The notes under the pieces were generated by a model. The model saw only the letters and a program-made list of their open reading frames with translations. It was not told the DNA's origin and made no database searches. Shown one piece after another: positions 1 through 23,644 of a stretch of DNA of 64,000 nucleotides. Every line of letters begins with the position of its first letter. The first letter of the stretch is position 1. A program made the position numbers and the translations under genes. The stretch spans positions 62,001 to 126,000 of the forward strand of contig NZ_MWQN01000001.1 of NCBI RefSeq assembly GCF_002024165.1, written 5' to 3'. The DNA is from Embleya scabrispora (GTDB lineage Bacteria; Actinomycetota; Actinomycetes; Streptomycetales; Streptomycetaceae).

Positions 1-525
1 GACGCCGCCGTAGTCGACGCCGTCGATCAGCACCGGGTTGGAGATTCGCGACCAGGAGTTCATCCCCTTGTAGAACAGCTCTTCCAGGCCGGGCGTACCC
101 GCCAGGCGGCTGTACAGATCGCGGGTTCGCCCCGGGAAGTGCCGCAGTCCCAGGTTCTCCCCCGCGCGCAGCGACGCGGTGTACTCGGCGGCGGGCGCGT
201 AGGCGATCCGGGCCTGGAACTCGACGATGTCGCGCAGGTGGGTCCAGGTTCCGTCGTCGAAGGCGGCCTCCACGACGAAGGCGTTGGCGTATCCGTCGCC
301 CTGTTTGACGGTCAGCCGCAGCGACGTGGTGCCCAGCAGGAGCACGGCCGCCGAGCGCTCGGGCAGTTCCAGTTCCTTGGCGATCTCCTCCCGGGTGCTG
401 CCCGGTCGTTCGTGCAGGAGTTCGGGAAGTCGCAGCTCGCAGGCCGCGTTCAGCTGCTGGAACGCGGCGTGGCCGAAGAGCAGCGGCACCAGGTCGGCCA
501 TGGTCAGGTGCGGGGTCGCGGTCAT
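1..525 (-). CDS. SAM-dependent methyltransferase, N-terminal part (runs off left edge)
   Basis: The first 175 residues are visible and the rest lies beyond the window edge. The visible part (MTATPHLTMADLVPLLFG, then a helical 'LPELLHERPGSTREEIAKEL' stretch at about 31-50) is the winged-helix dimerisation domain that precedes the Rossmann domain in the plant-type O-methyltransferase family, which also contains C-methyltransferases of 3-hydroxykynurenine-type substrates in actinomycete clusters. It is the last visible gene of the leftward operon and follows the tryptophan dioxygenase gene after 52 bases. A GGAGGT-like ribosome site lies just upstream of the ATG at 525. Context suggests methylation of a kynurenine or anthranilate intermediate. 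The SAM-binding motif is outside the window, so the exact substrate and even O- versus C-methylation are open. Confidence 0.7.
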   Translation of the reverse strand, partial: MTATPHLTMADLVPLLFGHAAFQQLNAACELRLPELLHERPGSTREEIAKELELPERSAAVLLLGTTSLRLTVKQGDGYANAFVVEAAFDDGTWTHLRDIVEFQARIAYAPAAEYTASLRAGENLGLRHFPGRTRDLYSRLAGTPGLEELFYKGMNSWSRISNPVLIDGVDYGGV

Positions 526-577: not shown

Positions 578-1438
578 TCACAACAGCGTGCGCACCGACC
601 ACAGTTCGGGGAAGAACCGGTGCTCGTTGATGGTGCGCAGCCACTCCAGGCCGGTGGTGCCCCCGGTGCCCGACTTGCCGCCGAGCATGCGTTCCACCAC
701 CAGCAGGTGGGTGGAGCGCCAGACCGAGAAGCGGAACGAGACGTCGCTCAGCGCCTCGGCGAGGCGGTGCTCCACGGGTCGGCCCGCCGGGTCGAGGTAG
801 ATCTCCAACCAGGCCTGCTCCACCAGCGGGTGCGGCTCGTGACGTCGTGTCACGTCCCGTTCCAGGAGTTCCGCGGGCAGCTCCGCGCCCTGTCGGGCCA
901 GGTATCGAATCGCCTCGTCGTACACGCTCGGCGCCCGCAACTCGGCCCGGAGCATGGGGTATCGCTCCAGTTCGGCCTTCCAGGCCCGGACCGTGTCCGG
1001 GTCCTTGTTGCCCATCGTGAACTCGAGTGCGCGGTACATGAACGACTGGGTGCCGGATGCCTCGCCCAGGATGTCGCGGAACTCCAGGAACTCGTCGGGG
1101 GCCATCGCGCTGAGCACTTCCCAGGACGTCAGCAGCGCCTGTTGGGACCGGGTCGCTCGTTGCAGATGCTCGCAGGCGACGGAGATCTCGTCCTGCCGGA
1201 TCGCGGTCCGGGCCTGGTCCAGTTCGATGTGGATGGTGCGGAACAGGATCTCCTTGACGTGGCTGATCAGGATGAAGGTCAGCTCGCACGGCGAATCGGT
1301 GAGCGGTCGGGCCAGTTCGTGCAGCTCGTCCATGCGCGCGTAGGACACGTACGGGGCGGGCCCGCCCCGGTCGGCACCCGCGCCGAATGGGCAGCGCGCG
1401 GGGGGCGGGACGGTGTCGGCGGCCGACTGGTCCCTCAT
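578..1438 (-). CDS. Tryptophan 2,3-dioxygenase
   Basis: This 286-residue protein matches heme-dependent tryptophan 2,3-dioxygenase, which opens the indole ring of L-tryptophan to N-formylkynurenine. Family hallmarks are present: the region with 'LLTSWEVLSAM', 'EFLEFRDILG' and 'SGTQSFMYR' in the middle, and near residue 244 'RSTHLLVVERMLG', whose His is the proximal heme ligand. Length is normal for the family. The ATG at 1438 overlaps the TGA of the upstream amidohydrolase gene (1435-1437), so the two are translationally coupled. With formamidase (12546) and kynureninase (22409) elsewhere in the cluster it completes the tryptophan-to-anthranilate route. Because two tryptophan halogenases are in the same cluster, the real substrate is probably a chlorinated tryptophan (inference). 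Confidence 0.93.
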   Translation of the reverse strand: MRDQSAADTVPPPARCPFGAGADRGGPAPYVSYARMDELHELARPLTDSPCELTFILISHVKEILFRTIHIELDQARTAIRQDEISVACEHLQRATRSQQALLTSWEVLSAMAPDEFLEFRDILGEASGTQSFMYRALEFTMGNKDPDTVRAWKAELERYPMLRAELRAPSVYDEAIRYLARQGAELPAELLERDVTRRHEPHPLVEQAWLEIYLDPAGRPVEHRLAEALSDVSFRFSVWRSTHLLVVERMLGGKSGTGGTTGLEWLRTINEHRFFPELWSVRTLL

Positions 1439-2991
1439 CGAAGCCTCCTCGTGGGGTGTGCGCCGCGAGCGCGGCGCAGTCGGGGGTTGTCGTCCAGAAG
1501 TGGGCGCAGCACCTTCTCGTCGATGCCCAACCGGCGGGCGGAGAAGGAGTGCAACGCGTCGAGGTAGTCCTCCAGGAGCTGCCGCTCGTCCAGCAGTTCG
1601 GCCTGCCCGGCGCGGACCAGGACGCGGCCGGCCACGATGACGGTGTCGACGTCGATGGAGCCGCCCAGGTGCAGGAACGCCTCCAGGGGGCGGGGGTTGA
1701 GCACGTAGCGCCAGTCGTCGGTGGACACCAGCACCAGGTCGGCTCGTTTGCCCGTCTCCAGGCTGCCGATCTCGTCGTCCCAGCGCAGCCCGCGCGCCGG
1801 TAGCCGGGTGGCCATGGCCAGCACGTCGGTGGGCGGCAGGAAGCTCTGGTCGGCCGAGAGTTCGTTGTGCGCCTGCCAGGCCGCGCGCATGTTCTCCGCC
1901 ATGCCGCCGAGCGGGTAGACGACGCCGTCGGTGGACACCGACACGTCCAGACCGGCGCGGATCAGTTCGGTGATCAGCCGGGTCTCGGTCAGCGCGGATT
2001 CGCCGGTGCTGCCGTACTTGGCGGGCGAGTGGCTGATGTGCACGCGGTTGTCGATCAGCAGGGACCGCTCGTACTCGTCGGCGAACGCACAGTGCACCGC
2101 CATCAACCGGTCGTCGAGCAGGCCGAGTTCGTGCAGGCGGCGCAGCGGTGTGGTGTCGAAGCACGCGCGCGTCGCCCGGTCCTCGTGCCGCAGCGCCCCC
2201 ACGTGGGTGGCGAAGGTCGTGTCGTATCGCTTGGTCAACTCGGCCAGCCCGCGCCCGAGTTCGTCAGACATGTTGCCCGGGTACACGGCCGTGGGCCGGC
2301 CGCGCAGCAGGCCGCTGCGGTCCTGGGCACAGCGGCGCAGCACGTCCTCCAGCGGGCCCAGTACGGCTTCCGGCTCACGGGTGCGTCGAAAGGCGTTCTG
2401 CTCGGGGACGGCGACTCCGTCGGTGGCCCAGGTGCCGAGTACGCAGCGCAGTCCGATCCGCAGTGCGGCGTCGGCGAGCGAGTGCGGCAGCGTGAACGAT
2501 CCGACGTCGGCGATGGTGGTGGTGCCGGATCGCAGTTGGGTCCACAGCGAGTAGGCGGCGATCGCCTCGGCCTCGTCGGGGGCGAGTTGCCCGGCGAGGT
2601 CGTGGAACGAGTCGAACATGGTGGAGATCCGGGCCATGTCTCCGCCGCAGGCCATGAATCCGGGTTCGTCGGCCCGGTCGTCGGCGGACCGCAGCGCGCC
2701 CTTGAACGGGATGCGCATCGCGTACATTTCGTGCCAGTGCGCGTTGACGAAGCCGGGCAGCACCATCATCGAGCGCGCGTCGACGGTGCGCAGGGCGGCT
2801 CGCACGGCCGGCTCGCAGGCGGCGACCGCCTCGTCCACGTCGGCGGCGGCGCCGACCGCGACGATCGTGTCGCCGACGACGAGCACCGACCCCGGGTCGT
2901 ACACCCGTGCGTCGGCGGCCGCGCTGTAGACCACGCCGTCCCGGATCAGCAGCCCGGTGGGCGCGGGGGCGTTCGCGCTCGCGCCGGTCAT
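1435..2991 (-). CDS. Amidohydrolase-superfamily metal hydrolase (AtzA/TrzA-like)
   Basis: This 518-residue cyclic amidohydrolase-type protein has the two-part beta-sandwich and TIM-barrel arrangement. It begins with 'LLIRDGVVYSA' and ends with 'GSLETGKRADLVLVSTDDW'. Metal and catalytic ligands appear intact: 'NAHWH' (the HxH motif), 'ATHVGA', 'MAVHC' and 'VSTDG' with the metal-binding Asp. The family includes chlorohydrolases, deaminases and amide hydrolases, so an active hydrolytic enzyme is expected. Its start ATG (2991) overlaps the stop of the carrier-protein gene, and its own stop overlaps the start of the tryptophan dioxygenase gene. Its step in the pathway is not obvious: possible roles are deamination, dechlorination or removal of an N-protecting group. 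No substrate can be assigned from sequence. Confidence 0.8.
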   Translation of the reverse strand: MTGASANAPAPTGLLIRDGVVYSAAADARVYDPGSVLVVGDTIVAVGAAADVDEAVAACEPAVRAALRTVDARSMMVLPGFVNAHWHEMYAMRIPFKGALRSADDRADEPGFMACGGDMARISTMFDSFHDLAGQLAPDEAEAIAAYSLWTQLRSGTTTIADVGSFTLPHSLADAALRIGLRCVLGTWATDGVAVPEQNAFRRTREPEAVLGPLEDVLRRCAQDRSGLLRGRPTAVYPGNMSDELGRGLAELTKRYDTTFATHVGALRHEDRATRACFDTTPLRRLHELGLLDDRLMAVHCAFADEYERSLLIDNRVHISHSPAKYGSTGESALTETRLITELIRAGLDVSVSTDGVVYPLGGMAENMRAAWQAHNELSADQSFLPPTDVLAMATRLPARGLRWDDEIGSLETGKRADLVLVSTDDWRYVLNPRPLEAFLHLGGSIDVDTVIVAGRVLVRAGQAELLDERQLLEDYLDALHSFSARRLGIDEKVLRPLLDDNPRLRRARGAHPTRRLR

Positions 2992-3305
2992 CGCCCGGCC
3001 TCGCGGTCCGCGGGGTGGGTGTCCTCGGTGGCGGCGCGTTGGGCGGCGTCGATCCGTTGCCACCAGGCGTCGAGTGTGGGTCGGGCGGCCAGGTCCTGGA
3101 ACGCGACGCGCAGGCCGAGCCGACGCCATTGGTTGACCAGTCGCATCATCTCCAGTGATCCGAGTCCGAGCAGGACCAGGTTCTGGTCGCCTCGGAGGTT
3201 GTCGGGGTCGGTGCCGATCACGGCGGCGACGGCTTCCCGCAGTCGCGGTGGGGTCAGTGAGGCGGCCGCCGCGTCGGCGGCATCCGGGTCGGTGCGCGGT
3301 TCCAT
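2988..3305 (-). CDS. Aryl carrier protein
   Basis: A 105-residue stand-alone carrier protein. The phosphopantetheine site is Ser50 in 'LGLGSLEMMRL', followed by 'VNQWRRLGLRVAFQDLAARPTLDAWW', the helix II-III pattern of aryl carrier proteins such as the EntB and VibB ArCP domains. It has GS where most have DS. The gene lies between the aryl-AMP ligase (3389) and the amidohydrolase (overlap at 2988-2991). In the family, such proteins hold an aryl acid as a thioester after transfer from a partner AMP ligase. Here the likely cargo is the anthranilate-type acid made by this cluster. The first 20 or so residues are low-complexity Ala/Asp and look like a linker. The carrier-protein identity is secure and the cargo is inferred. 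Confidence 0.88.
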   Translation of the reverse strand: MEPRTDPDAADAAAASLTPPRLREAVAAVIGTDPDNLRGDQNLVLLGLGSLEMMRLVNQWRRLGLRVAFQDLAARPTLDAWWQRIDAAQRAATEDTHPADREAGR

Positions 3306-3388: not shown

Positions 3389-4981
3389 TCAGGAGAACCG
3401 GGCGACCAGTGCCTTCTTGTCGACCTTGCCCAGGGGGGTGCGCGGCAGGTCGGCGAGGATCTCCAGGCGATCCGGGAGCTTGTAGTCGGCCAGTCCCTCG
3501 TCCTGCAGTGCCGTGCGCAGGTCGAGCAGTTCGGGCGCGTGGCCGTGCGCGACCACGCACGCGCAGGTGCGCTCGCCGAGGATCGGGTCGGGGACCCCGA
3601 TCAGGGCGACCTGGTGAACCCCCGGCAGGGCGAGCAGGTGTTCCTCGATCTCGGGTGCGGAGATCTTGTCGCCGCCGCGGATGACCACGTCCTTGATCCG
3701 GCCCTCGATCACCAGGTGACCGTCGGGGGTGCGGGTGACCACGTCCCCGGTGCGGTAGAAGCCGTCCTCGGTGAAGGCCCGCTCGTTGTGTTCGGGGGCG
3801 CGGTAGTAGCCGCGCAGTGTGTACGGCCCGCGCACGAGCATCTCGCCGGCCGCGCCGGGGGCCACCGGATCGCCGTGCTCGTCGACGATCCGCACCTCGT
3901 CCGCCGGGGACAGGGGCAGGCCCTGGGTGGTGTACGCGGTCTCCTCGTCGTCGTCTTCGCGGACGTAGGACAACATGCCTTCGGCCATTCCGAAGACCTG
4001 TTGCAGTCGGCAGCCGAACGCGGGCGGGATGCGGCGGGCCGTCTCCGCCGGCAGTTTGGCCCCGCCGACCTGGACGAAGCGCAGACTCGACAGGTCGTGT
4101 GCGCTCCACTCCACCTCTTCCAGCCACAGATGCGCGATGGCGGGCACCAGCGAGGTGAAGGTCACCCGTTCCCGGGCGATCAGCGCGAAACACTCGTCGG
4201 CGCCGGCGTCCGCGGCCAGTACGACCGTGCCGCCGGCGGAGAGGGTGCCGAGTACGCCGGGACATCCCCAGGGGAAGTTGAACTCGATCGGGAGCACCAC
4301 GAGGTACACGTCCTGCCGGGTGAGTCGGCACAGTTCGCTGCCGGCGCGCACCTGGTAGGCGTAGTCGTCGTGGGTGCGCGGGATCAGTTTGGGCAGCGCG
4401 GTGGTTCCGCCGGAGAGCAGGAAGAAGGCGACGTCGGCCGGGTCCACCCGGACCGGTTCGAGGCCACGCTCGGATGTGCCCGGGTCGGTGAAGTCGTCCG
4501 GGCCGCCCACGACCAGGATCGTGCGCAGGGTGGGTACGTCGGCCTGGATCCGTTTGGCCAGCGCCGGGTAGTCGTAGCCGACCCGGCCGTCGGGCACGAT
4601 GTAGGCGACCGCCTCGGAGATGCGGCACAGGTGCCGGATCTCGTTGCCGCGATGCGCGGCGAGGGCGAACACCGGGTGGGCGCCGAGTCGAAACAGCGCG
4701 AAACATACGGCGACGAACTCGGGGATGTTCGGCAGGTGCACCACGACCCGGTCGCCCGCGGTGATGCCTTCGGCGTTCAGCCGGATCGCCACCCGGTCGG
4801 CCCACAGGTCGAGTTCGCGGTAGCTCAGCCGGCGTTCCCGGTGCACCAGTGCGACGCGGTCGTCGTATCGGCGCGCCCAGTCGTGCAGGAGGTCGCCCAG
4901 GGTGCGGCCCTGCCAGTATCCCGATTCGCGGTAGCGCTCGGCCCATTCGTCGGGCCAGGGGGTGCAGCCGGCGAGCATCAT
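3389..4981 (-). CDS. Aryl acid-AMP ligase (DhbE/salicylate-ligase type)
   Basis: This 530-residue adenylate-forming enzyme belongs to the family that activates 2,3-dihydroxybenzoate, salicylate and related acids and loads an aryl carrier protein. The P-loop-like 'LLSGGTTALPKLI' is at about 189-200 and 'YRTGDVV' with 'GRIKDVVIRGG' is in the C-terminal half. The terminal Lys motif reads 'TPLGKVDKK'. By my count the specificity positions of DhbE numbering fall on Asn235, Cys240 and Leu337. Dihydroxybenzoate ligases have Ser240 and Val337, while salicylate ligases have Cys and Leu, so an aryl acid without a 3-hydroxyl is predicted. That fits an (chloro)anthranilate. Two ATGs (4981 and 4978) both overlap the KASIII stop. 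The carrier-protein gene follows 83 bases downstream. Confidence 0.9.
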   Translation of the reverse strand: MMLAGCTPWPDEWAERYRESGYWQGRTLGDLLHDWARRYDDRVALVHRERRLSYRELDLWADRVAIRLNAEGITAGDRVVVHLPNIPEFVAVCFALFRLGAHPVFALAAHRGNEIRHLCRISEAVAYIVPDGRVGYDYPALAKRIQADVPTLRTILVVGGPDDFTDPGTSERGLEPVRVDPADVAFFLLSGGTTALPKLIPRTHDDYAYQVRAGSELCRLTRQDVYLVVLPIEFNFPWGCPGVLGTLSAGGTVVLAADAGADECFALIARERVTFTSLVPAIAHLWLEEVEWSAHDLSSLRFVQVGGAKLPAETARRIPPAFGCRLQQVFGMAEGMLSYVREDDDEETAYTTQGLPLSPADEVRIVDEHGDPVAPGAAGEMLVRGPYTLRGYYRAPEHNERAFTEDGFYRTGDVVTRTPDGHLVIEGRIKDVVIRGGDKISAPEIEEHLLALPGVHQVALIGVPDPILGERTCACVVAHGHAPELLDLRTALQDEGLADYKLPDRLEILADLPRTPLGKVDKKALVARFS

Positions 4982-6015
4982 CGGCCTCCGGCCGCGTCCG
5001 CGGTGATCCGCACGATCGCGCAGGCCACCTCGAAGCCCGGGGTGCCGCCGAGCAGGAGCACGTGGTCGCCGGTGCGAACCGCGCCGGTGGTCCACAGGTG
5101 TTCGAGCCCCGCGACGTGGTCGGAGGGGCCGGCGTGCCCGGTGCGCCGGACGAACTCCCAGGTGCCGCGCGCCTCGTCGATCCCGATCGGGTCCAGGAAG
5201 GTGTCCCGCAGCGCGTCTTGGGCGAAGCTGACGTGGGCGACCCGGGTGATGTCGTCCATGGTGAGTTCGGCCTCGGCCACCGTCTCGTGCACCACCTCGG
5301 CCACCAGGTCGCCGAGGTGCCCCATCGGCGGCGGGCTGCCGGCGGCCCACTGCTGGGCCCAGTAGGTGCGCCGGCGTTCCAGGTCGAGCGGTTCGCCGCG
5401 GGTGATGCCCGGCGGGAACATCTGCTCGCCGCCGCGGTGCAGTTCCTCCATGCGCGGGATGGACCGGGCGCCGGTGGCCACGAGTCGGGCGAATCCGGGT
5501 CGGGTGGACAACACGATCGCGCCGGCCCCGTCGGCGAGTACGAACAGTTTGGAGACCGTCCAGCGGTCGACCGTGGGGGTGTTGAAGTTGTCCGCGGTGG
5601 TCAGCAGGACGGCGGTCCGGCTCGGGTCGGCCAGCAGGTGGTTGGCGCCCAGTTCCAGCGATTCGATGATGCCCAGGCAACCGTGCCGGACCTCGATCGC
5701 CGAGATCGGCTGGTCGACGGTGTTGCGCACGATGTAGTGCGGCGCGGACCACACGTCCGGTCCCTGGTAGTGCACGGTGCTGTGGAACAGCTTGCAGATC
5801 TCGGCGGCCTCGTGGTCGGCCTGCTTGAGCGCCGCGTTCGCGGCGCGGATCGCCATGTCGGGGGCGGGCAGGTCGCCGGCGTCGCCGATCGACAGCAGCC
5901 CGCTGCTCTCGCGTTCGGCCGCGGGGTAGCGGCCGGCCGCGACCGCGTCCTCGGTGCTCACCCGGTCCGGCAGGTGGGTGCCGATACCGGCCAGGTGGAT
6001 TCCGTCGAATCTCAT
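4978..6015 (-). CDS. KASIII-like acyltransferase / condensing enzyme
   Basis: A 345-residue thiolase-fold protein resembling the FabH (KASIII) group. The nucleophilic Cys is at 113 in 'EVRHGCLGIIESL'. A His at 261 ('RVAHVSF') matches the FabH catalytic His. The usual Asn of the 'GNTS' loop is replaced, reading 'RTGHAGPSDH' with His294. Loss of that Asn is typical of KASIII homologues that transfer acyl groups to hydroxyl or amine acceptors instead of doing a decarboxylative Claisen reaction, such as CerJ. The gene sits between the DUF6875-like gene and the aryl-AMP ligase, with its stop overlapping the ligase start. The simplest model is that it takes the aroyl group from the carrier protein. 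A PqsD-like quinolone-forming condensation is an alternative. Confidence 0.82.
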   Translation of the reverse strand: MRFDGIHLAGIGTHLPDRVSTEDAVAAGRYPAAERESSGLLSIGDAGDLPAPDMAIRAANAALKQADHEAAEICKLFHSTVHYQGPDVWSAPHYIVRNTVDQPISAIEVRHGCLGIIESLELGANHLLADPSRTAVLLTTADNFNTPTVDRWTVSKLFVLADGAGAIVLSTRPGFARLVATGARSIPRMEELHRGGEQMFPPGITRGEPLDLERRRTYWAQQWAAGSPPPMGHLGDLVAEVVHETVAEAELTMDDITRVAHVSFAQDALRDTFLDPIGIDEARGTWEFVRRTGHAGPSDHVAGLEHLWTTGAVRTGDHVLLLGGTPGFEVACAIVRITADAAGGR

Positions 6016-6037: not shown

Positions 6038-6703
6038 TTATCGGGACCGGTCGGCACGACCGGACAGGACGGGGACGGCGTGCTCGTCCGCCGCGCGCAC
6101 GGCGGATGCGTACAGGCCGGCGAACCGCGGGTCGATCCGGGCGCCGCTGTCGTAGTAACGCGCGTACCGTTCGCGGTAGTTGGAGAACCAGCCGGGGTGG
6201 TCGTGCAGGAAGAGGATGTCGTGGAAGGCCATGTTCCTGATCGCGATCATCGGCCAGGGGGCCCGGTTGACGGGGAACAGCGGGTTGCGCGCCGCCGGGG
6301 CCCGGCAGTCCGGGTGGAACTGGCCGAGCATCAAACCCTCGGCCACCGCCCGGTCCTTGGTCGCCCGATGGCCCTCGTCGATCAGCCACCAGCCCTCCTC
6401 GGGCAGGTCGGTGACCAGCACGACGAGCGCGTGCAGTTGGGGATTGCGCGCCTTCCAGTCGATGGACCGGAACATCCGGGTGGCGTCCTCGATCATCCGC
6501 ACCATCCGGGGCAGGTGCGGTGGGCCCTCCCAGCGATGGCCCACCGCGATCAGCGAATCGGCGCGCAACGAGGGTTCGACGAAGGGGCAGACCGGGCCGT
6601 CGCGGCCGAGTTCGGGGTGCGGTTGGGCGATGTAGTCGCCGAGCCAGGTGTGCAACTCCCGGTCGTGCTCGGCGTCCAGGGTGACGAACGGATATTTCCT
6701 CAT
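6038..6703 (-). CDS. Conserved hypothetical protein, DUF6875-like
   Basis: A 221-residue soluble protein without signal peptide or membrane helix. Conserved-looking blocks are 'CPFVEPSLRADSLI', 'FHPDCRAPAARNPLFP' and 'PMIAIRNMAFHDILFLHDHP'. I recall this pattern from an uncharacterised actinomycete family (DUF6875), but I am relying on memory for that name. Several conserved Cys and His (CPF, FHPDC, FHD, HDHP) could bind a metal or form an active site. Its ATG (6703) overlaps the stop of the preceding unknown gene by four bases, and the KASIII gene follows 22 bases after its stop, so it is part of the same translationally coupled operon. A role in handling or ligating the aroyl group is possible but unsupported. 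Confidence 0.65.
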   Translation of the reverse strand: MRKYPFVTLDAEHDRELHTWLGDYIAQPHPELGRDGPVCPFVEPSLRADSLIAVGHRWEGPPHLPRMVRMIEDATRMFRSIDWKARNPQLHALVVLVTDLPEEGWWLIDEGHRATKDRAVAEGLMLGQFHPDCRAPAARNPLFPVNRAPWPMIAIRNMAFHDILFLHDHPGWFSNYRERYARYYDSGARIDPRFAGLYASAVRAADEHAVPVLSGRADRSR

Positions 6704-7293
6704 CGGATGCCCTCGTCCCGGATCACGGAGCAGTTCGTGGCGCGAGGCGGCCAGTACGCGCCGGGCGCGGAACACTCCAGGGTGGCGGTTTGGCTGAGCG
6801 GAATCGGGTCCGCGGTGCTCGCGGAGAGCGTGCGGCGGATCTGCCGGGGGGCGCCGCCGGTGCGGATGCCGCTCTCCCACGAGGGACGCGGGTACGCCGC
6901 TGCCTCCTGACGGGCGAGTTCGGCGGCGGCGGGGTCGGCGCCCGCGTGTGGTCGGCCCCGGGGCTCGGCCCAGCGCCACGTCTGGGCGTCGAGCGCGGCC
7001 CAGGTGCGCACACCCTCGGCGCCGAAGCACTGGGCGAAGTAGCCCCGGATGAGCGTCAACGCGCGCAGGCACACGCAGCGCCAACCCTCGGTGTCGGTCT
7101 CGTCGGGCTCGGGTCGGCCGTCGTCCAGTCGGGACAGGATCGCCGTCCACGCGTCGTAGCCGCCGGCGCCCAGTTGTTCGAGCGCGTTGGCCATGCTCAC
7201 TTCGGCGGCGAAGAGTCGATGCCGCCAGACCGTCGCGTCGTCGCCGTCGGTGTCGGGACCGCCGTTGCGGGGTCCCTCTGCGGGAGAGGTCAC
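6700..7293 (-). CDS. Hypothetical protein in halogenated-anthranilate operon
   Basis: I do not recognise this 197-residue protein. The N-terminal half is helical ('WRHRLFAAEVSMANALEQLG', 'TEGWRCVCLRALTLIRGYFAQCFG') and contains 'WAALDAQTWRWAEPRGRPHAG'. The C-terminal third is rich in Pro, Ser and Arg and looks unstructured, ending 'GAYWPPRATNCSVIRDEGIR'. It starts with GTG at 7293, one base after the TGA of the DAHP synthase gene (7295-7297), and its stop overlaps the ATG of the DUF6875-like gene. This tight coupling argues that it is a real gene with a job in the same pathway. No signal peptide or transmembrane segment is visible. Confidence 0.6.
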   Translation of the reverse strand: MTSPAEGPRNGGPDTDGDDATVWRHRLFAAEVSMANALEQLGAGGYDAWTAILSRLDDGRPEPDETDTEGWRCVCLRALTLIRGYFAQCFGAEGVRTWAALDAQTWRWAEPRGRPHAGADPAAAELARQEAAAYPRPSWESGIRTGGAPRQIRRTLSASTADPIPLSQTATLECSAPGAYWPPRATNCSVIRDEGIR

Positions 7294-7294
7294 A

Positions 7295-8368
7295 TCAGAC
7301 CCCTTCCGTCGCCAGCGCGCGCGGACGTGCCGGCATCGGACGCGGCGGCGGCACCGCCAGGACCCGACCCGTCGCGGTCAGCAACCGGCCGAGATCGGCG
7401 GTCAGTTCGGCCAGTTCCTTGGGATGCAGCGCCTGCCCCGCGTCGCACAGCGCGGTGGCCGCGTCGGGGTGGATGTCGATCATGATGCCGTCGGCGCCGA
7501 CCGCGGCGGCGGCCAGTGCGAGCGGCCGGACCAGGTCGGTGCGCCCGGCCGCGTGGCTGGGGTCGACGATCACCGGCAGGTGGCTGATCCGTCGCACCGC
7601 GGCGACGGCGGACAGGTCGAGGGTGAAGCGGGTCGCCGGCTCGAACGTGCGGATGCCGCGTTCGCACAACACCACGTCGGGGTTGCCCTCGGACAGGATG
7701 TACTCGGCCGCGAGCAGCCATTCCTCGATCGTGGCCGCCATCCCGCGTTTGAGCAGCACCGGCCGGCCGCTGCGCCCGATCGCGCGCAGCAGGGTCGCGT
7801 TGCTCATGTTCCGGGTGCCGACCTGGAGGATGTCCGCGACCTCCAGGACGTCGTCCAGGTCGGCGACGTCGAGCACCTCGGTGATGATCGGCAACCCGGT
7901 GACCTCGCGCTGTTCGGCGAGCAGGCGCAGTCCGGCGCGTCCCAGGCCCTGGAAGCTGTACGGCGAGGTCCGGGGCTTGTAGGCACCACCGCGCAGGATG
8001 GCGCCCCCGGCGAGCGCGACGCCGTGCGCGGAGTCGCCCATCTGGGCCCGGTTCTCCACCGCGCACGGGCCCGCGACGACCACGAACGCCGGGCCGCCGA
8101 TCGGCACTCCGGCCACGTCGACGACGGTGTCGGCGCGTTGGTAGGCGCGTCCGGTGAAGCGCAATGCGTCCTCGGTGTCGACCACCGATTCCACACCGGG
8201 CAACGGTCGGATGCGTTCGGCCAGGCCCCGCGGAGCGGTCCCGGTCGAGATCAGGTGGGCGCGGCCGTGGCATCGGCTGCGCAGTACCTGCATGTCCTCC
8301 GCACGAAGCGCCGCAGCCACGTCTTCGGCAAGCTCCGGAGCGGAAGTCTGATCCATCACCACGATCAT
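7295..8368 (-). CDS. aroF: 3-deoxy-7-phosphoheptulonate synthase (type I-beta DAHP synthase)
   Basis: A 357-residue DAHP synthase, catalysing PEP plus erythrose 4-phosphate to DAHP, the first step of the shikimate pathway. Motifs of the type I-beta subfamily are clear: 'VVAGPCAVEN', 'GGAYKPRTSPYSFQG', 'LLKRGMAATIEEW' and 'VIVDPSHAAGRTDL'. About 85 N-terminal residues form the small regulatory domain found in this subfamily. It is the first gene of the leftward operon. An in-cluster extra copy normally raises the supply of aromatic precursor, here tryptophan for the halogenases and the kynurenine route. Start choices are ATG 8368 and ATG 8356. The first has a GGGGGA element eight bases upstream. 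Confidence 0.92.
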   Translation of the reverse strand: MIVVMDQTSAPELAEDVAAALRAEDMQVLRSRCHGRAHLISTGTAPRGLAERIRPLPGVESVVDTEDALRFTGRAYQRADTVVDVAGVPIGGPAFVVVAGPCAVENRAQMGDSAHGVALAGGAILRGGAYKPRTSPYSFQGLGRAGLRLLAEQREVTGLPIITEVLDVADLDDVLEVADILQVGTRNMSNATLLRAIGRSGRPVLLKRGMAATIEEWLLAAEYILSEGNPDVVLCERGIRTFEPATRFTLDLSAVAAVRRISHLPVIVDPSHAAGRTDLVRPLALAAAAVGADGIMIDIHPDAATALCDAGQALHPKELAELTADLGRLLTATGRVLAVPPPRPMPARPRALATEGV

Positions 8369-8589: not shown

Positions 8590-9477
8590 TCAGCGTCGCG
8601 CCGAGACCAGCCACAGGCGTTGGGCCAACCGCTGGTCGGCGGCGAGCACGGGCGGTACCGGCCGGCCCAGGCCGGCGGCGTACGACTCGACGTCGACCAG
8701 AGTGGCCTGCCAGCCGAAGCCGGCCAGCCACTGCAGCGGGTCGTCGATCGAGGACCGCCAGGCCACCCCGACCCGGGCGAGCTCGTGCGCCATGTGGGCG
8801 AACTCCTCGGTCTGCATCATCGCCGCGTTGACGTGGTCCAGAACCAGCCGGCTGCCCGGCTGCGACAGTGCGCCGACGCGCGCGAGCAGCCCGTCGCAGT
8901 CGGCCCGACCGAGGTAGAGCAGCAATCCCTCGGCCACCCACACGGTGGGCAGCGTGGGGTCGAATCCGGCCGAACACAGCGCCGCCGCCCACTCGTCGGC
9001 GAGGTCGACCGGCACCGGCACGCGGTGACATCGCGCCCGCGCCCGCGCCCGCGCCAGCACCTCCGCCTTGTAACGCAGCACGTCCTGTCGGTCGAGCTCG
9101 AACACCCGCACCCCCGCCGGCCAGGGCAGCCGGAAGGCGCGGGTGTCCAGTCCGGCCCCGAGCAGCACCATCTGGCGCCCGCCGACGCGGGCGGCGGCGA
9201 GCAGTTCGTCGTCGAACAGGCGGGTGCGCAGCCCGATGAATCCGTGCATCCCGGACCAGCGTGCGCCCAGCGACCTCCTCGGCCGGAATCCGGCCGGCGG
9301 CGCCGCGCGGGACGCGTCCAGTGGGGCCAGGAAGGCCGCCGCGAGGTGGTCGTCGAAGAGTCGATCGGGACGACGGCTCTCCAGGTTGCGTTCGGCGGCG
9401 ATGCTCAACGCGGTCAGGCCGGCTCCCGACAGCGGGAAATCCTGGTGGTCGCGGGGTTGGTGGCTCGGCTCGGTCAT
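8590..9477 (-). CDS. SAM-dependent methyltransferase, TIGR00027/LCMT-like family
   Basis: A 295-residue class I methyltransferase of the leucine-carboxyl-methyltransferase-like family that is common in actinomycetes. Recognisable blocks are 'GARWSGMHGFIGLRTRLFDDELLAA', 'RQMVLLGAGLDTRAFRLPWP' (the SAM-binding loop) and 'VFELDRQDVLRYK'. 'VWVAEGLLLYLG' follows in the second half. The ATG at 9477 is preferred over upstream in-frame ATGs because a GGGAGG ribosome site lies six bases before it. Family members methylate carboxylates or hydroxyls of small molecules. Its substrate is unknown, but its place at the head of the anthranilate operon and opposite the Lrp regulator suggests a late tailoring role in this cluster. 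Confidence 0.82.
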   Translation of the reverse strand: MTEPSHQPRDHQDFPLSGAGLTALSIAAERNLESRRPDRLFDDHLAAAFLAPLDASRAAPPAGFRPRRSLGARWSGMHGFIGLRTRLFDDELLAAARVGGRQMVLLGAGLDTRAFRLPWPAGVRVFELDRQDVLRYKAEVLARARARARCHRVPVPVDLADEWAAALCSAGFDPTLPTVWVAEGLLLYLGRADCDGLLARVGALSQPGSRLVLDHVNAAMMQTEEFAHMAHELARVGVAWRSSIDDPLQWLAGFGWQATLVDVESYAAGLGRPVPPVLAADQRLAQRLWLVSARR

Positions 9478-12545: not shown

Positions 12546-13409
12546 TCAGGGCCGGGCGGCGGGTGGCGACAGGCCCATCTGTGCCAGCACCGCGTCACCG
12601 ACCGAGGTCCCGACCCGACCGAGATCGAACGGCAGGTCGAAGTGATTGCGTCCGACCACCACCAGATCGCGAACCGGGTGCCCCCCGCCCCGCAGCATCT
12701 GGACGAACTCCCTTTGCTGCCGGGCGTATTCGAAGGTCTCGTCGGCTCCTCGGGCGATGATCACCGATCGTGCGGCGAGGGTTCCCGCCCGCAGCGGACT
12801 GTAGCGCTCCGCGGTTTCCCGATCCAGTCCCAGCGCGTCGTTGACGTAGCTCGACCGGATCGGTTGCAGGTCGTACACCCCGCTGAGCAGGCACACCCCG
12901 GGCACTCGCGGCCCCGCCTCGGGTCCGCTGAGCGCCGCCGCGACGAGATGGGCGCCGGCCGAACTCCCGCCCGCGTACACCGCGTCGCCCGCGTGTCCGA
13001 GCGCGTCGGCGTGCTCGCACAACCAGCGCAGCGCGCGCCGCACCGACGCGACCATCTCGGCCAGCGAGTTGCCCGGCGCCAGTCCGTATCCCAGCGCCGC
13101 GAACGCCGCCCCGGAACTCACGAACCGGGGTGCGGCGAAGGCGGATTCCTCCTTGCTGCACTGCTGCCAGTGGCCGCCGTGGACGAACACGAACAGCGGT
13201 GCGCCGGGCCGGGTCGCGGGGAAGTAGTCGAGCCGCTCGGCCGGATCGGGTCCGTATCGCACGTCCGGGCGGCAGGCCAGGTCGGCGCGTGCCTGCCGGC
13301 TGCGATCCGCGGCCTGGTCCAGGGTCCGCAGAAAGTCGGGCGCGCGGGAACTCGGCGAGTACTCCCGGTCGAGCGCGGCTCGATCGAACGCGCCGTAGAC
13401 GATGGTCAT
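12546..13409 (-). CDS. Kynurenine formamidase (arylformamidase), alpha/beta hydrolase
   Basis: A 287-residue alpha/beta hydrolase with the arylformamidase oxyanion motif 'HGGHW' at 77-81. The nucleophile is Ser150 in 'AGGSSAGAH'. The likely acid is Asp in 'RGADETFEYARQQREF' and the likely base is His in 'GRNHFDLPFDLG'. These enzymes hydrolyse N-formylkynurenine to kynurenine and formate. It supplies the step between the tryptophan dioxygenase (578) and the kynureninase (22409). The ATG at 13409 has a GGAGGACC ribosome site directly upstream. It follows the SARP regulator gene on the same strand after 77 bases. If chlorination happens at the tryptophan stage, the enzyme must accept ring-chlorinated substrate. 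Confidence 0.85.
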   Translation of the reverse strand: MTIVYGAFDRAALDREYSPSSRAPDFLRTLDQAADRSRQARADLACRPDVRYGPDPAERLDYFPATRPGAPLFVFVHGGHWQQCSKEESAFAAPRFVSSGAAFAALGYGLAPGNSLAEMVASVRRALRWLCEHADALGHAGDAVYAGGSSAGAHLVAAALSGPEAGPRVPGVCLLSGVYDLQPIRSSYVNDALGLDRETAERYSPLRAGTLAARSVIIARGADETFEYARQQREFVQMLRGGGHPVRDLVVVGRNHFDLPFDLGRVGTSVGDAVLAQMGLSPPAARP

Positions 13410-13486
13410 GGGTCCTCCACATTCGGTCGACGCCGCGGCACCGGCGTTCGATGTTCGACGGTTGCGGGGTTCGTCGGCGACGCGTC

Positions 13487-16984: not shown

Positions 16985-20003
<3,019 letters not shown>

Positions 20004-20098: not shown

Positions 20099-20650
20099 TC
20101 AGGGCTGCCCCGGCCAGGCGGCATAGCCACGCAGGCCGTACAGCAGCGGATCGGGCAGTGAGCGATGGGCCGTGCCCAGCACTTCGCCGAAGATCACCGC
20201 GTGATCGCCGACGACGTCGTCGCGCACCACCTTGCAGTCGGCGACCCCGTGCGCGGCCTCGGCCAGATGCGGGCCGCCGGCGCCGGCGGGCAGACACCAG
20301 GGGGTGCGCGCGAACCGGTCGGGAGCGCCGGAGGCGAACAACTCGGCCGTGCTCCTGGCGTGTCCGCTCAGCAGGTTGAGCGCGAAGGTGCCGCCGGCCC
20401 GGACCGCTTCCAGCGTGGGACTGCCCTGGCGCAGGCAGACCAGGAGGGTGGGCGGCGACAGCGTCACGCAGCTGATCGAGGTGCAGGTCATGCCCCACGG
20501 GTGGTTTCCCGCGTCGAGCGTGGTGAGCACGCCGACACCGGTGGGAAAGCCGGCCATGAAGGCTCGCAGTCGGTCGGCCCGGTCGGTCGGCTCCGCGGGG
20601 TGGTCGACCCGGACGTCGTCGTGTACGTCGGCGCGGACGGAATGCGTCAC
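20099..20650 (-). CDS. NAD(P)H:flavin oxidoreductase (halogenase partner)
   Basis: A 183-residue member of the flavin reductase-like FMN-binding family. Typical segments are 'RAFMAGFPTGVGVLTTLDAGNHPWGMTCTSISCVTLSPPTLLVCLR' through the N-terminal half and 'GTFALNLLSGHARSTAELFA' after it. 'GDHAVIFGEV' is near the C-terminus. It reduces FAD with NAD(P)H and releases FADH2 for flavin-dependent halogenases. It sits between the antiporter gene and the second halogenase gene, 32 bases after the latter on the same strand, so it is probably co-transcribed with both halogenases. Translation starts at GTG 20650 with GGAG upstream. Confidence 0.9.
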   Translation of the reverse strand: MTHSVRADVHDDVRVDHPAEPTDRADRLRAFMAGFPTGVGVLTTLDAGNHPWGMTCTSISCVTLSPPTLLVCLRQGSPTLEAVRAGGTFALNLLSGHARSTAELFASGAPDRFARTPWCLPAGAGGPHLAEAAHGVADCKVVRDDVVGDHAVIFGEVLGTAHRSLPDPLLYGLRGYAAWPGQP

Positions 20651-20681: not shown

Positions 20682-22271
20682 TCATTTACCGTGGAGTTGG
20701 CGCAGGAATTCGTACGTGGTGGGCAGCTCGGCCAGCAGGTGTCGCCGCCGGGACTCGACCTCGGCGAACAGGTTCTCGACACTTTCGATGGAGGCCGGCT
20801 TGTATTCCAGGGCGGGCAACACACGATCCGGGAGGTGGCCGAGGCCGGCAAAGATGCACCAGTAGTTGGTGTTGTTCCAGAAATTCTTGTTGTCCACTTC
20901 GGAATTGCCGTAGTACACTCGCTCGCCGGCCTGCGAGGTGTTCACCGGGAATCCGGCCCGATACAGCGAGATCTTCTCCCGGACGTCGTCGCCGAGCGGA
21001 AGCTCCTTGTTGGCCCGCCAAAACTCCGTGTCCGTGCGCGGCGAGAAGTAGAAGTGCGTCTGGATGAAGTCGCGGGTGAAGTCGAACATGCTCTCCACCT
21101 CGCGATTGAAGTGGTCGACCAGGGTCGGGTCGAAGCGCTTGTCCGGAAAGTGCTTGGCGAGTTGGTGCACCGCGGAGTAGATGAAGTAGATGCCGGTCGA
21201 CTCGAGCGGTTCGACGAAGCACGAGGCGAGTCCGATGCTCACCACGTTGCGCACCCAGGCCCGACGGTTGCGGCCGACCCGGAAGCGTACGTGGTTGAAC
21301 GGGGTGCGGTCGGGGTTCAGACCCCACAGGTCGCAGAACTCGCGCGTGGCCTCGTCCTGGCCGGTGAACTTGCTCGAGTAGACGTAGCCGGTGCCGAAGC
21401 GGGTCAGCATCGGGATCTTCCAGGTCCAGCCGGAACTCATCGCGATCGCCGAGGTGAACGGCTCGACGCCGTTGGCGGCGTCGTCGTGCGGGACCGCGGT
21501 CGCCACGGCGCTGTCGCACAGCAGTTGGTCGGACATGTCCAGGAACGGCTCTTCCATCGCCTGGTTGATCAACAGGCCGCGGAAGCCCGAGCAGTCCACG
21601 AACAGGTCGCCTTCGAGGAGTCGGCCCTCCTTCGTGCGCAGCGCGGTGATGTGGCCCCGCTCGTCGAGGACCGCCTCGGTCATCTCGTCCTGGACGTGCC
21701 GCACACCCTGCTTCTCGGTGGCGAACCGGCGCAGGAAGTCCGCGACCAGGTTGGCGTCGAAGTGCCAGGCGTAGCCGGTGGCCTGGCTGCCGTCGCGGTA
21801 GCGCGGGCCCTTCTTGGCGTCGAGCACCTCGGCTTCGGCGAAACACGCGTAGTCGAAGGGCACGTCGGTCTCGCCCCGCAGGGTGCGCAGGTGCCAGTAG
21901 TGCGAGAGCGGGATCCCGTCGTGCTCGGGGAGGTTGGCGAAGTGATGGTAGAAGTGGTCGACGCCGCCGTCGAGCGCGCGTGGTTGTGCCGCGCCGTTGC
22001 CGGGGGTGCGCCAGTTGACGAACCGGATGCCCGCCTTGAAGCTCGCGTTGCACTCGCGCATCCATTCGTCCTCGGGAATACCGAGGTAGTCGAAGAACGC
22101 GGACTGCAGGTTCGGCACGGTGGCTTCGCCGACACCTATTCGGGGAATGGTGGGCGCCTCCAGGACCGTGATGTCCACGGCACCCTGGAGGGCCTTCCCC
22201 AGATACGAGGCGGTCATCCACCCCGCCGTCCCGCCGCCGAGAACGACCAGCCTCTTGATGCGATGGTCCAC
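20682..22271 (-). CDS. FADH2-dependent tryptophan halogenase, Thal/RebH-like (predicted tryptophan 6-halogenase)
   Basis: A 529-residue halogenase with FAD motif '[18 protein letters not shown]', catalytic Lys79 in '[10 protein letters not shown]', signature 'GWTWKIPML' and Glu in '[14 protein letters not shown]'. The long insert and the C-terminal '[16 protein letters not shown]' mark it as the 6/7-halogenase branch. Segments such as '[21 protein letters not shown]', 'NWRTPG', '[25 protein letters not shown]' (variation of Thal) and '[19 protein letters not shown]' look closer to Thal-type 6-halogenases than to RebH. Phe replaces the usual Tyr before Lys79. Translation starts at GTG 22271 with AAGGAGAG seven bases upstream. 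Together with the PyrH-like enzyme it could give 5,6-dichlorotryptophan. Regiochemistry is inferred from remembered similarity only. Confidence 0.93.
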
Positions 22272-22408: not shown

Positions 22409-23644
22409 CTAACCGTAGGCGCTGGTTCGGGCGAATCGTGGATCGGTGTACTGTTTGGTTTCCGCGACCCGCCACAAGCGTTCGACGCTTTCCCGGACGT
22501 CTTGATGCGAGACATATAGCGGATGGAATCCGAAACGGAGCAGATCCGGCGGCCTACTGTCCGCGACGACGCCCTGCGGCATCAGGGCGCGAATCATCCC
22601 GTAGGCGTGTTCGTGCCGCAGCGAGACGTGCCCACCGCGTCGTTCGGCGGCACGTGGGGTGACCACCTCGAACGCCGGTTCGTCCGGTAGTTCGTCCACA
22701 CAGCGGACGAAGAACGCGGTGAGCGAGAGGCTCTTGTCGCGCAGTTGCTCGACCGTGACGTCGCGATACACGTCCAGCGCGGCGTCCAGGGCGACCAACG
22801 ACAGGATCGCGGGTGTCCCGACCACGGCCCGGGCGATGCCGGGGGCCGGCAGGTACGGGCCACCGGTGGCGAACGGGGTGACGTGTCCGAGCCAGCCGGC
22901 CAGCGGCAGGTCCAGGGCTTCGTGGTGGCGTTCGGCGACGTACACGAAGGCCGGTGAACCGGGGCCGCCGGACAGGTACTTGTAGGTACAACCCACCGCC
23001 AGGTCGACGTCGTGGCGCTCCAATTCGAGCGGCAGCACGCCCACGCCGTGACAGACGTCCCACAGGACGACCGCGCCCGCGTCGTGCGCCGCCGCGGTGA
23101 TGCCCGCGATGTCCCACAGCTCGCCGGTGCGGTAGTCCACCACCGGGTACGCGGCCACCGCCACGTCGCGGCCGTTTCGGGCCAACCACCCGGCCGCCTC
23201 CCCCGCGGGCACCTCGACCACCCGCAGGCCCAGCAGCCTGGCCGCCGACTCGGCCATGTAGCGGTCGGTGGGAAAGTGTCGCGGATCGGTCAACAGCATC
23301 TGCCGGCCCGGCCGCAGGCGGGCCGCCCCGATCAGCGTGTTGAACAACTGCACCGAGGTGGAGTCGCCCACCGCGACCTGTCCCGGGCCGACCCCGAGCA
23401 GGGCGCCGATCCGATCCCCCACCCGGGTGGGCAGTTCCATCCAGTCCACCCAGGAGCGCACCAGGTCCTCGCGCCATTGTCGATGGATGGTCTCGTGCAC
23501 CGCGGGGGCGACCGAGGTCGGCAGCGGCCCGAGCGAGTTTCCGTCCAGGTAGATCAACCCCGGCGGCAGCGCGAACCGCTCCCGGACGCCGGCCAACACG
23601 TCTTTTGCGTCCAAGCGTTCAGCGTCGGTGCGCGTCGTGGACAT
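22409..23644 (-). CDS. kynU: Kynureninase
   Basis: A 411-residue PLP enzyme of fold type I. 'LIYLDGNSLGPLP' at the N-terminus and the PLP-lysine motif 'GCTYKYLSGGPGSPAFVYV' (Lys222) are diagnostic of kynureninase. 'LWDVCHGVGVLPLEL' carries the PLP-binding Asp. It cleaves kynurenine to anthranilate and alanine, or 3-hydroxykynurenine to 3-hydroxyanthranilate. No kynurenine 3-monooxygenase is visible in the window, so anthranilate or a chloro-anthranilate is the expected product. Its ATG (23644) overlaps the 3' end of the second SARP gene by 26 bases, which suggests co-transcription with the regulator. The Cys in 'DVCHG' replaces the usual Ala. Confidence 0.93.
   Translation of the reverse strand: MSTTRTDAERLDAKDVLAGVRERFALPPGLIYLDGNSLGPLPTSVAPAVHETIHRQWREDLVRSWVDWMELPTRVGDRIGALLGVGPGQVAVGDSTSVQLFNTLIGAARLRPGRQMLLTDPRHFPTDRYMAESAARLLGLRVVEVPAGEAAGWLARNGRDVAVAAYPVVDYRTGELWDIAGITAAAHDAGAVVLWDVCHGVGVLPLELERHDVDLAVGCTYKYLSGGPGSPAFVYVAERHHEALDLPLAGWLGHVTPFATGGPYLPAPGIARAVVGTPAILSLVALDAALDVYRDVTVEQLRDKSLSLTAFFVRCVDELPDEPAFEVVTPRAAERRGGHVSLRHEHAYGMIRALMPQGVVADSRPPDLLRFGFHPLYVSHQDVRESVERLWRVAETKQYTDPRFARTSAYG

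Follow-up and report, generated by a model that had tools for sequence, protein, structure and literature searches.

What do two adjacent unassigned genes contribute to the anthranilate gene cluster of Embleya scabrispora in which they lie? The window analyzed here is the whole stretch of 64,000 nucleotides from contig NZ_MWQN01000001.1. It carries both genes on the minus strand, in a unit transcribed in the order DAHP synthase, 197-aa ORF, DUF6875 gene, KASIII-like gene, DHB-AMP-ligase-like gene, aryl carrier protein (ArCP), amidohydrolase and tryptophan 2,3-dioxygenase (TDO) (Table 1). The original prediction held that the two genes overlap each other and their neighbors, and that such coupling implies a stoichiometric role in the pathway. 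The two genes do share 4 bp (ATGA, 6700-6703), but their outer neighbors do not overlap them. Between the DUF6875 stop and the KASIII start at 6015 lie 22 bp, and the KASIII gene has its own GAGGAGAG Shine-Dalgarno-like sequence ahead; the DAHP synthase stop at 7295 is 1 bp from the start of the 197-aa ORF. Because 4-bp overlaps occur at 4 of the 7 junctions in the DAHP synthase-to-TDO unit, and none surrounds the DUF6875 gene of S. olivaceus, where the 197-aa gene is absent, the overlap is uninformative on stoichiometry. Both ORFs are genuine genes and look coding. In the comparison with Embleya hyalina, pN/pS was 0.04 for the DUF6875 gene, the lowest among 14 genes compared, and 0.35 for the 197-aa ORF (Fisher p = 0.04).

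Table 1. Features of the mycemycin-type cluster in the window
Feature	Position	Strand	Evidence
mymB/SibL/AcnM-type C-methyltransferase, 5' portion; remainder left of window	1..525	-	PF00891 (L052:15465-16526); 75% to S. olivaceus
Tryptophan 2,3-dioxygenase, TDO (mymC)	578..1438	-	PF03301
Amidohydrolase (mymD)	1435..2991	-	PF01979; 65% to S. olivaceus
Aryl carrier protein (mymE)	2988..3305	-	PF00550
2,3-DHB-AMP-ligase-like (salicyl) ligase (mymF)	3389..4981	-	TIGR02275, 665 bits, under cut-off 723.55
KASIII-like ester/amide-forming enzyme (mymG/BomK type)	4978..6015	-	PF08541, PF08545; 67% to S. olivaceus
DUF6875 protein, 221 aa, mymH orthologue	6038..6703	-	PF21780, E = 2.2e-53
197-aa ORF, genus-specific	6700..7293	-	ORF, without Pfam/NCBIfam match
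DAHP synthase (mymI)	7295..8368	-	TIGR01361 above cut-off
LCM-type SAM methyltransferase (mymJ)	8590..9477	-	PF04072
Alpha/beta hydrolase (mymL), likely kynurenine formamidase	12546..13412	-	PF20434/PF07859
Tryptophan halogenase (mymM type)	16985..18517	-	PF04820
Flavin reductase (mymO)	20099..20650	-	PF01613
Tryptophan halogenase (mymP type)	20682..22271	-	PF04820
Kynureninase (mymQ)	22409..23644	-	PF22580

The window cluster is of the mycemycin type and is collinear with the published mym cluster of S. olivaceus FXJ8.012 (Table 1 of PMC5867642). Together with its left flank, it matches mymA-mymR3 in content and order. A MymB/SibL-type methyltransferase and a salicylate synthase (TIGR03494, 455 bits vs. 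a cut-off of 325) lie at the left window edge and beyond. To the right of the unit are a methyltransferase, an Lrp regulator, an MFS pump, an alpha/beta hydrolase, two SARP regulators, two tryptophan halogenases, a flavin reductase, a Na/H exchanger and kynureninase. In other DUF6875 loci, a member of the mymL alpha/beta hydrolase family adjoins TDO and kynureninase. The locus of S. olivaceus NRRL B-3009 (L058) is collinear at 52-80% identity (44% for the LCM-type methyltransferase), and the cluster of Embleya hyalina NBRC 13850 (G020) is 94-99% identical to that of the window. No whole copy of the LCM-type methyltransferase gene (8590-9477) was found in the E. hyalina cluster (L053), which is nearly identical in other respects. 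Like the window DUF6875 gene, mymH lies between the KASIII and DAHP synthase genes and encodes a "hypothetical protein" of 220 aa, against 221 aa in the window; the NRRL B-3009 protein at the mymH position is 64% identical to the window protein. The mym cluster differs in lacking a 197-aa gene between mymH and mymI and in its non-overlapping junctions. The benzoxazole-forming cassette of the cbx/nat/bom type (ligase, ArCP, KASIII and amidohydrolase) is complete in the window. The roles of these four proteins are given in PMC5481532 and PMC7204872, and by its position the amidohydrolase (mymD) would have the cassette role of CbxE/NatAM.

The original prediction described the product of the mymH orthologue as DUF6875-like with conserved Cys/His blocks, and our searches agree. 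The protein scored 181.4 bits against PF21780, which has a curated cut-off of 24.5, and thus belongs to a known, very recently described family. An hmmscan at E<=0.1 gave PF21780 alone, with no match to PF08892 (YqcI/YcgG), and the Pfam scan found no FAD-binding monooxygenase domain in it. We found 67 DUF6875 places, used 52 and excluded 15 weaker ones. With five loci removed for their long fused frames, C39 was present in 51/51 and H130 in 49/51 of the aligned sequences, rows that include the same-genome repeats L058/L082, L060/L132 and L061/L155. H161, scored with the neighbor counts on matched segments (55 rows, 53 distinct loci), was present in 39 of the 55 rows and marks one clade, which includes the window protein. 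A second DUF6875 stretch in the window's own genome (L056 about 9202; G000:C5:154189-154713) is 33% identical, has a serine in place of C133 and adjoins adenylation-domain matches. Two other genomes, G078 (C1:8851143, 8875491) and G278 (C1:8191266, 8215465), each have a pair of DUF6875 genes separated by about 24 kb and perhaps belonging to one NRPS cluster; the second gene of each pair has no TDO alongside and may serve another oxidation.

A 2026 paper (PMC13307353) describes DUF6875 proteins as heme-binding and as oxidizing L-Trp, and cites a "cytochrome P422" preprint (10.64898/2025.12.11.692455). Deletion of zigI, a DUF6875 gene, or of the methyltransferase gene zigH gave a product without the methoxy group (PMC13307353). 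The window protein is in the same Pfam family as these tryptophan oxidases, as far as they are described there, and its pathway, too, would use a hydroxylated tryptophan-derived ring. In contrast to the zig cluster, which has no TDO or kynureninase in its list, the window pathway is predicted to cleave the indole. Another paper on heme enzymes, which form hydrazines (PMC12154649), was set aside; it names neither a DUF nor a Pfam family.

Structure and profile comparisons of the DUF6875 protein were more equivocal. An AlphaFold2 model built from six sequences had a pLDDT of 76; its loops at 31-38 and 136-144, near C39 and H130 in sequence, are loose. The best five rows from VIA-align were all AglA (Z 6.7-7.1 over 136-153 residues, rmsd 4.3-4.9; next row 5.6), below the tool's confidence level of Z 8, so that AglA as best fold match of the model is suggestive only. 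In Foldseek, no match reached E<=0.001 (E 0.015). According to PMC12866846, AglA belongs to the YqcI/YcgG family; it is a small heme hydroxylase that uses Cys44 as heme ligand and folds into a four-stranded sandwich. Both AglA and the DUF6875 protein are small, of alpha/beta type, and have an invariant cysteine early in the chain, but AglA acts on a guanidine N-H and the window protein is not matched by PF08892, the profile of the AglA family. Profile comparison of DUF6875 with YqcI/YcgG gave scores of 19.4 and 23.0, not above the controls (shuffle maximum 22.7, reversed 21.0), and the alignment placing C39 opposite the YqcI cysteine scored within those controls. A likeness to nitric oxide synthase (Z 4.4, 3.5) was within background and was not used. 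TDO, IDO and MarE folds were not among the structural matches listed, an absence that rules out none of them, and sequence searches of the PDB gave no meaningful match.

A link of DUF6875 to aroyl/ArCP chemistry, as originally predicted, was not borne out across the family, for the KASIII cassette is absent from 50 of the 53 distinct DUF6875 loci and present in three. Homologues widespread outside aroyl-CoA/ArCP contexts were named in the original prediction as its refutation, and for DUF6875 this is what was seen. DUF6875 proteins go instead with tryptophan catabolism. The order DUF6875, alpha/beta hydrolase, TDO, kynureninase, MymB was identical in nine further loci (L129, L130, L131, L133, L136, L137, L139, L140 and L142), and L148 has the same five genes rearranged. 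A TDO neighbor was found in 17 of 37 distinct H161-clade loci vs. 0 of 16 distinct loci without H161. The analysis supports the expectation that the DUF6875 gene, within the anthranilate pathway, is a likely site of unusual chemistry. No TDO is nearby in 22 of the 39 H161-clade rows, and the family therefore does more than TDO-linked hydroxylation.

The same gene order is found in actinomycin D biosynthesis. In PMC6521150, the S. costaricanus cluster reads acnF, acnG (arylformamidase), acnH (TDO), acnL (kynureninase) and acnM (methyltransferase). The acnF product is there hypothetical but essential, with 211 aa in the table or 212 aa in the text; a kynurenine 3-monooxygenase gene is stated to be missing from the cluster, and AcnF is proposed to help dimerization (PMC6521150). 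As described, acnF stands directly upstream of the formamidase-TDO-kynureninase-methyltransferase genes, as DUF6875 does in the nine loci. Locus L133 is like the actinomycin cluster so described: an NRPS gene with a thioesterase-domain end precedes a 210-aa DUF6875 protein and the four other genes, and a siderophore-interacting protein follows. From gene order and length, we infer that AcnF would be a DUF6875 protein.

Clusters with the benzoxazole cassette appear to reach 3-hydroxyanthranilate by two routes. We mapped 18 clusters, the surroundings of 17 KASIII relatives and the window, of which 8 have all four cassette genes. Three of these (window, E. hyalina and S. olivaceus) contain DUF6875, TDO, kynureninase and MymB but no ADIC synthase, isochorismatase or short-chain dehydrogenase (SDR). 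The other five (G099, G226, G090, G127 and G267) contain ADIC-synthase-like, isochorismatase-like and SDR genes but no DUF6875, TDO, kynureninase or MymB. The Pfam check of these chorismate-route genes covered all three in G099 and single genes in L089, L092 and L096. The two routes occurred together in 0 of the 8 complete cassettes (Fisher p = 0.018, to be read as a pattern and not as a strict probability because the clusters are related). Among the 10 clusters with incomplete cassettes, none has DUF6875, and G180, G290 and G153 have ADIC-synthase-like and isochorismatase genes; the G180 and G290 contigs end near the cluster.

The G099 cluster, with a salicylate synthase, one halogenase and no mymH, resembles the mye type. 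At L084:10998-15672 its ADIC-synthase-like, isochorismatase, SDR and class II DAHP synthase genes lie beside the amidohydrolase gene. With these chorismate-route genes, the cluster has no need of the TDO and kynureninase of primary metabolism. The mye cluster yields mycemycins A and B without a mymH homologue (PMC5867642), and a chorismate route, seen here in a cluster known to be mye-like by resemblance, would account for that lack. MymB-type methyltransferases act on 3-hydroxykynurenine (AcmL, PMC6521150), so that a 3-hydroxyl is required in the tryptophan-derived pathway. Kynurenine 3-monooxygenase, an FAD enzyme of a different family from DUF6875, would give the same 3-hydroxy ring. FAD_binding_3 was not found within the cluster of G000 (C1) or G179 among the matches listed. 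Such an enzyme may be encoded elsewhere in the genome, because the three genomes scanned hold 52-66 FAD_binding_3 matches each.

We consider it probable that the DUF6875 gene encodes a small aromatic hydroxylase dependent on heme, which would feed 3-hydroxy-4-methylanthranilate formation in place of kynurenine 3-monooxygenase, with the 197-aa gene outside this core. With its predicted heme, the enzyme would spend O2 and two electrons to hydroxylate C7 of L-tryptophan, or the equivalent carbon of kynurenine, and this step would probably act on tryptophan C7, ahead of TDO. Ring cleavage by TDO, deformylation by the formamidase, C-methylation of 3-hydroxykynurenine by MymB and the action of kynureninase would then give 3-hydroxy-4-methylanthranilate, in the predicted order. 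KASIII would join it to the salicyl-carrier protein, with the ligase and carrier protein serving this step, and the amidohydrolase would cyclize the conjugate. The model for both reactions is nataxazole and caboxamycin biosynthesis, as set out in PMC7204872 and PMC5481532. The hydroxyl installed by DUF6875 would be the 3-OH of 3-hydroxy-4-methylanthranilate and would become the oxygen of the predicted heterocycle in a chlorinated natural product. Hydroxylation of tryptophan or of kynurenine, and chlorination before or after it, are each compatible with these data.

If kynurenine were the substrate, the protein would act downstream of TDO, as a kynurenine 3-monooxygenase of heme type. Its adjacency to formamidase, TDO and kynureninase in the nine collinear loci fits this, as does 3-hydroxykynurenine being the substrate reported for MymB-type enzymes in PMC6521150. 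We regard it as unlikely, for PMC13307353 presents the characterized relatives as hydroxylating tryptophan at C7 and names no TDO in the cluster of ZigI.

The 197-aa gene was predicted to form a functional pair with the DUF6875 gene and to belong to no recognized family. Pfam and NCBIfam scans were indeed empty. The pairing, on the other hand, is not supported by its distribution: full-length matches occurred in 2 of 297 related genomes, those of the window and E. hyalina, and the gene is absent from the mym orthologue. The ORF is probably translated, judging by its pN/pS. Residues ~18-129 resemble a conserved streptomycete protein of ~250-290 aa (about 30% identity over ~110 aa, E~1e-9), whose Cys-rich C-terminal part is missing or heavily altered in the 197-aa protein, which by sequence appears to be a shortened relative. 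The longer proteins (L034, L037, L039, L042-L044, L046, L048 and L050) carry PCTYC and GHGC in that C-terminus; two members scanned had no Pfam match below E 0.1 (one weak, 0.2). Weak matches inside ~460-aa ORFs were dropped as unrelated; the one in L049 we take, from its sequence by eye, to be a ROK-family protein. It is quite unlikely that the 197-aa product is a helical partner of the DUF6875 enzyme, such as an electron-transfer scaffold or maturation factor. The ATGA overlap, the retention of the gene with DUF6875 in both genomes holding it, and an N-terminal half predicted helical in an otherwise unusable model (pLDDT 46) would suit a partner. Against it, no 197-aa gene lies beside the S. 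olivaceus DUF6875 gene or in mym Table 1 (PMC5867642), no cofactor motif was found in the protein, and its relatives sit elsewhere, one of them adjoining AsnB-like and LuxR-like genes. The 197-aa gene is most likely a lineage-specific accessory gene.

The hydroxylase reading also bears on the product. Mycemycin A (C15H11NO4) is an isomer of O-methylcaboxamycin (m/z 270), and both mycemycin structure papers fixed the inter-ring link from the molecular formula. The mycemycin 13C values (about 110, 139, 150, 159 and 164) presumably resemble those of a 2-(2-hydroxyphenyl)benzoxazole. Because the window-type cassette is a benzoxazole cassette, the mycemycins may be benzoxazoles instead of dibenzoxazepinones. 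Counter to this, mycemycin C was reported to show an NH signal with an HMBC. In the scheme that the mycemycin authors proposed, the anthranilate is unhydroxylated and an ether-forming oxidative coupling falls to an unnamed P450 encoded outside the cluster (PMC5867642), which counts against a hydroxylase. A heme protein within the cluster would fit that coupling, forming the C-O bond between the rings of the reported dibenzoxazepinone. Such a function is nevertheless highly improbable for DUF6875: mye makes mycemycins A and B without mymH, the cassette is missing from nearly all DUF6875 loci (50/53), and a redox-neutral route of the NatL2/NatAM type needs just a 3-hydroxyanthranilate, according to PMC7204872. 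A non-catalytic regulator or structural protein is hardly credible, given the lowest pN/pS of the 14 genes (0.04), the retained conserved residues, and the blocked or altered product upon deletion of acnF (PMC6521150) and zigI (PMC13307353).

Tryptophan-first hydroxylation for mycemycin or actinomycin precursors was not found in the literature searched, which covered few subscription papers or preprints; the cytochrome P422 preprint may already contain this pathway. The chances are slightly better than even that DUF6875 heme enzymes are a third, hitherto unassigned source of 3-hydroxyanthranilates, in which tryptophan is hydroxylated first and TDO and kynureninase then yield 3-hydroxykynurenine products with no need for kynurenine 3-monooxygenase. 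Both mymH and AcnF would then have an assignment, and such an enzyme would supply the ring oxygen of a benzoxazole mycemycin. A candidate enzyme would thus be named for two published gaps, the mycemycin ring oxygen and the 3-hydroxylation in actinomycin D. Benzoxazole clusters would become readable by a simple rule, a tryptophan route with DUF6875 or a chorismate route, and an unassigned gene would become directly assayable.
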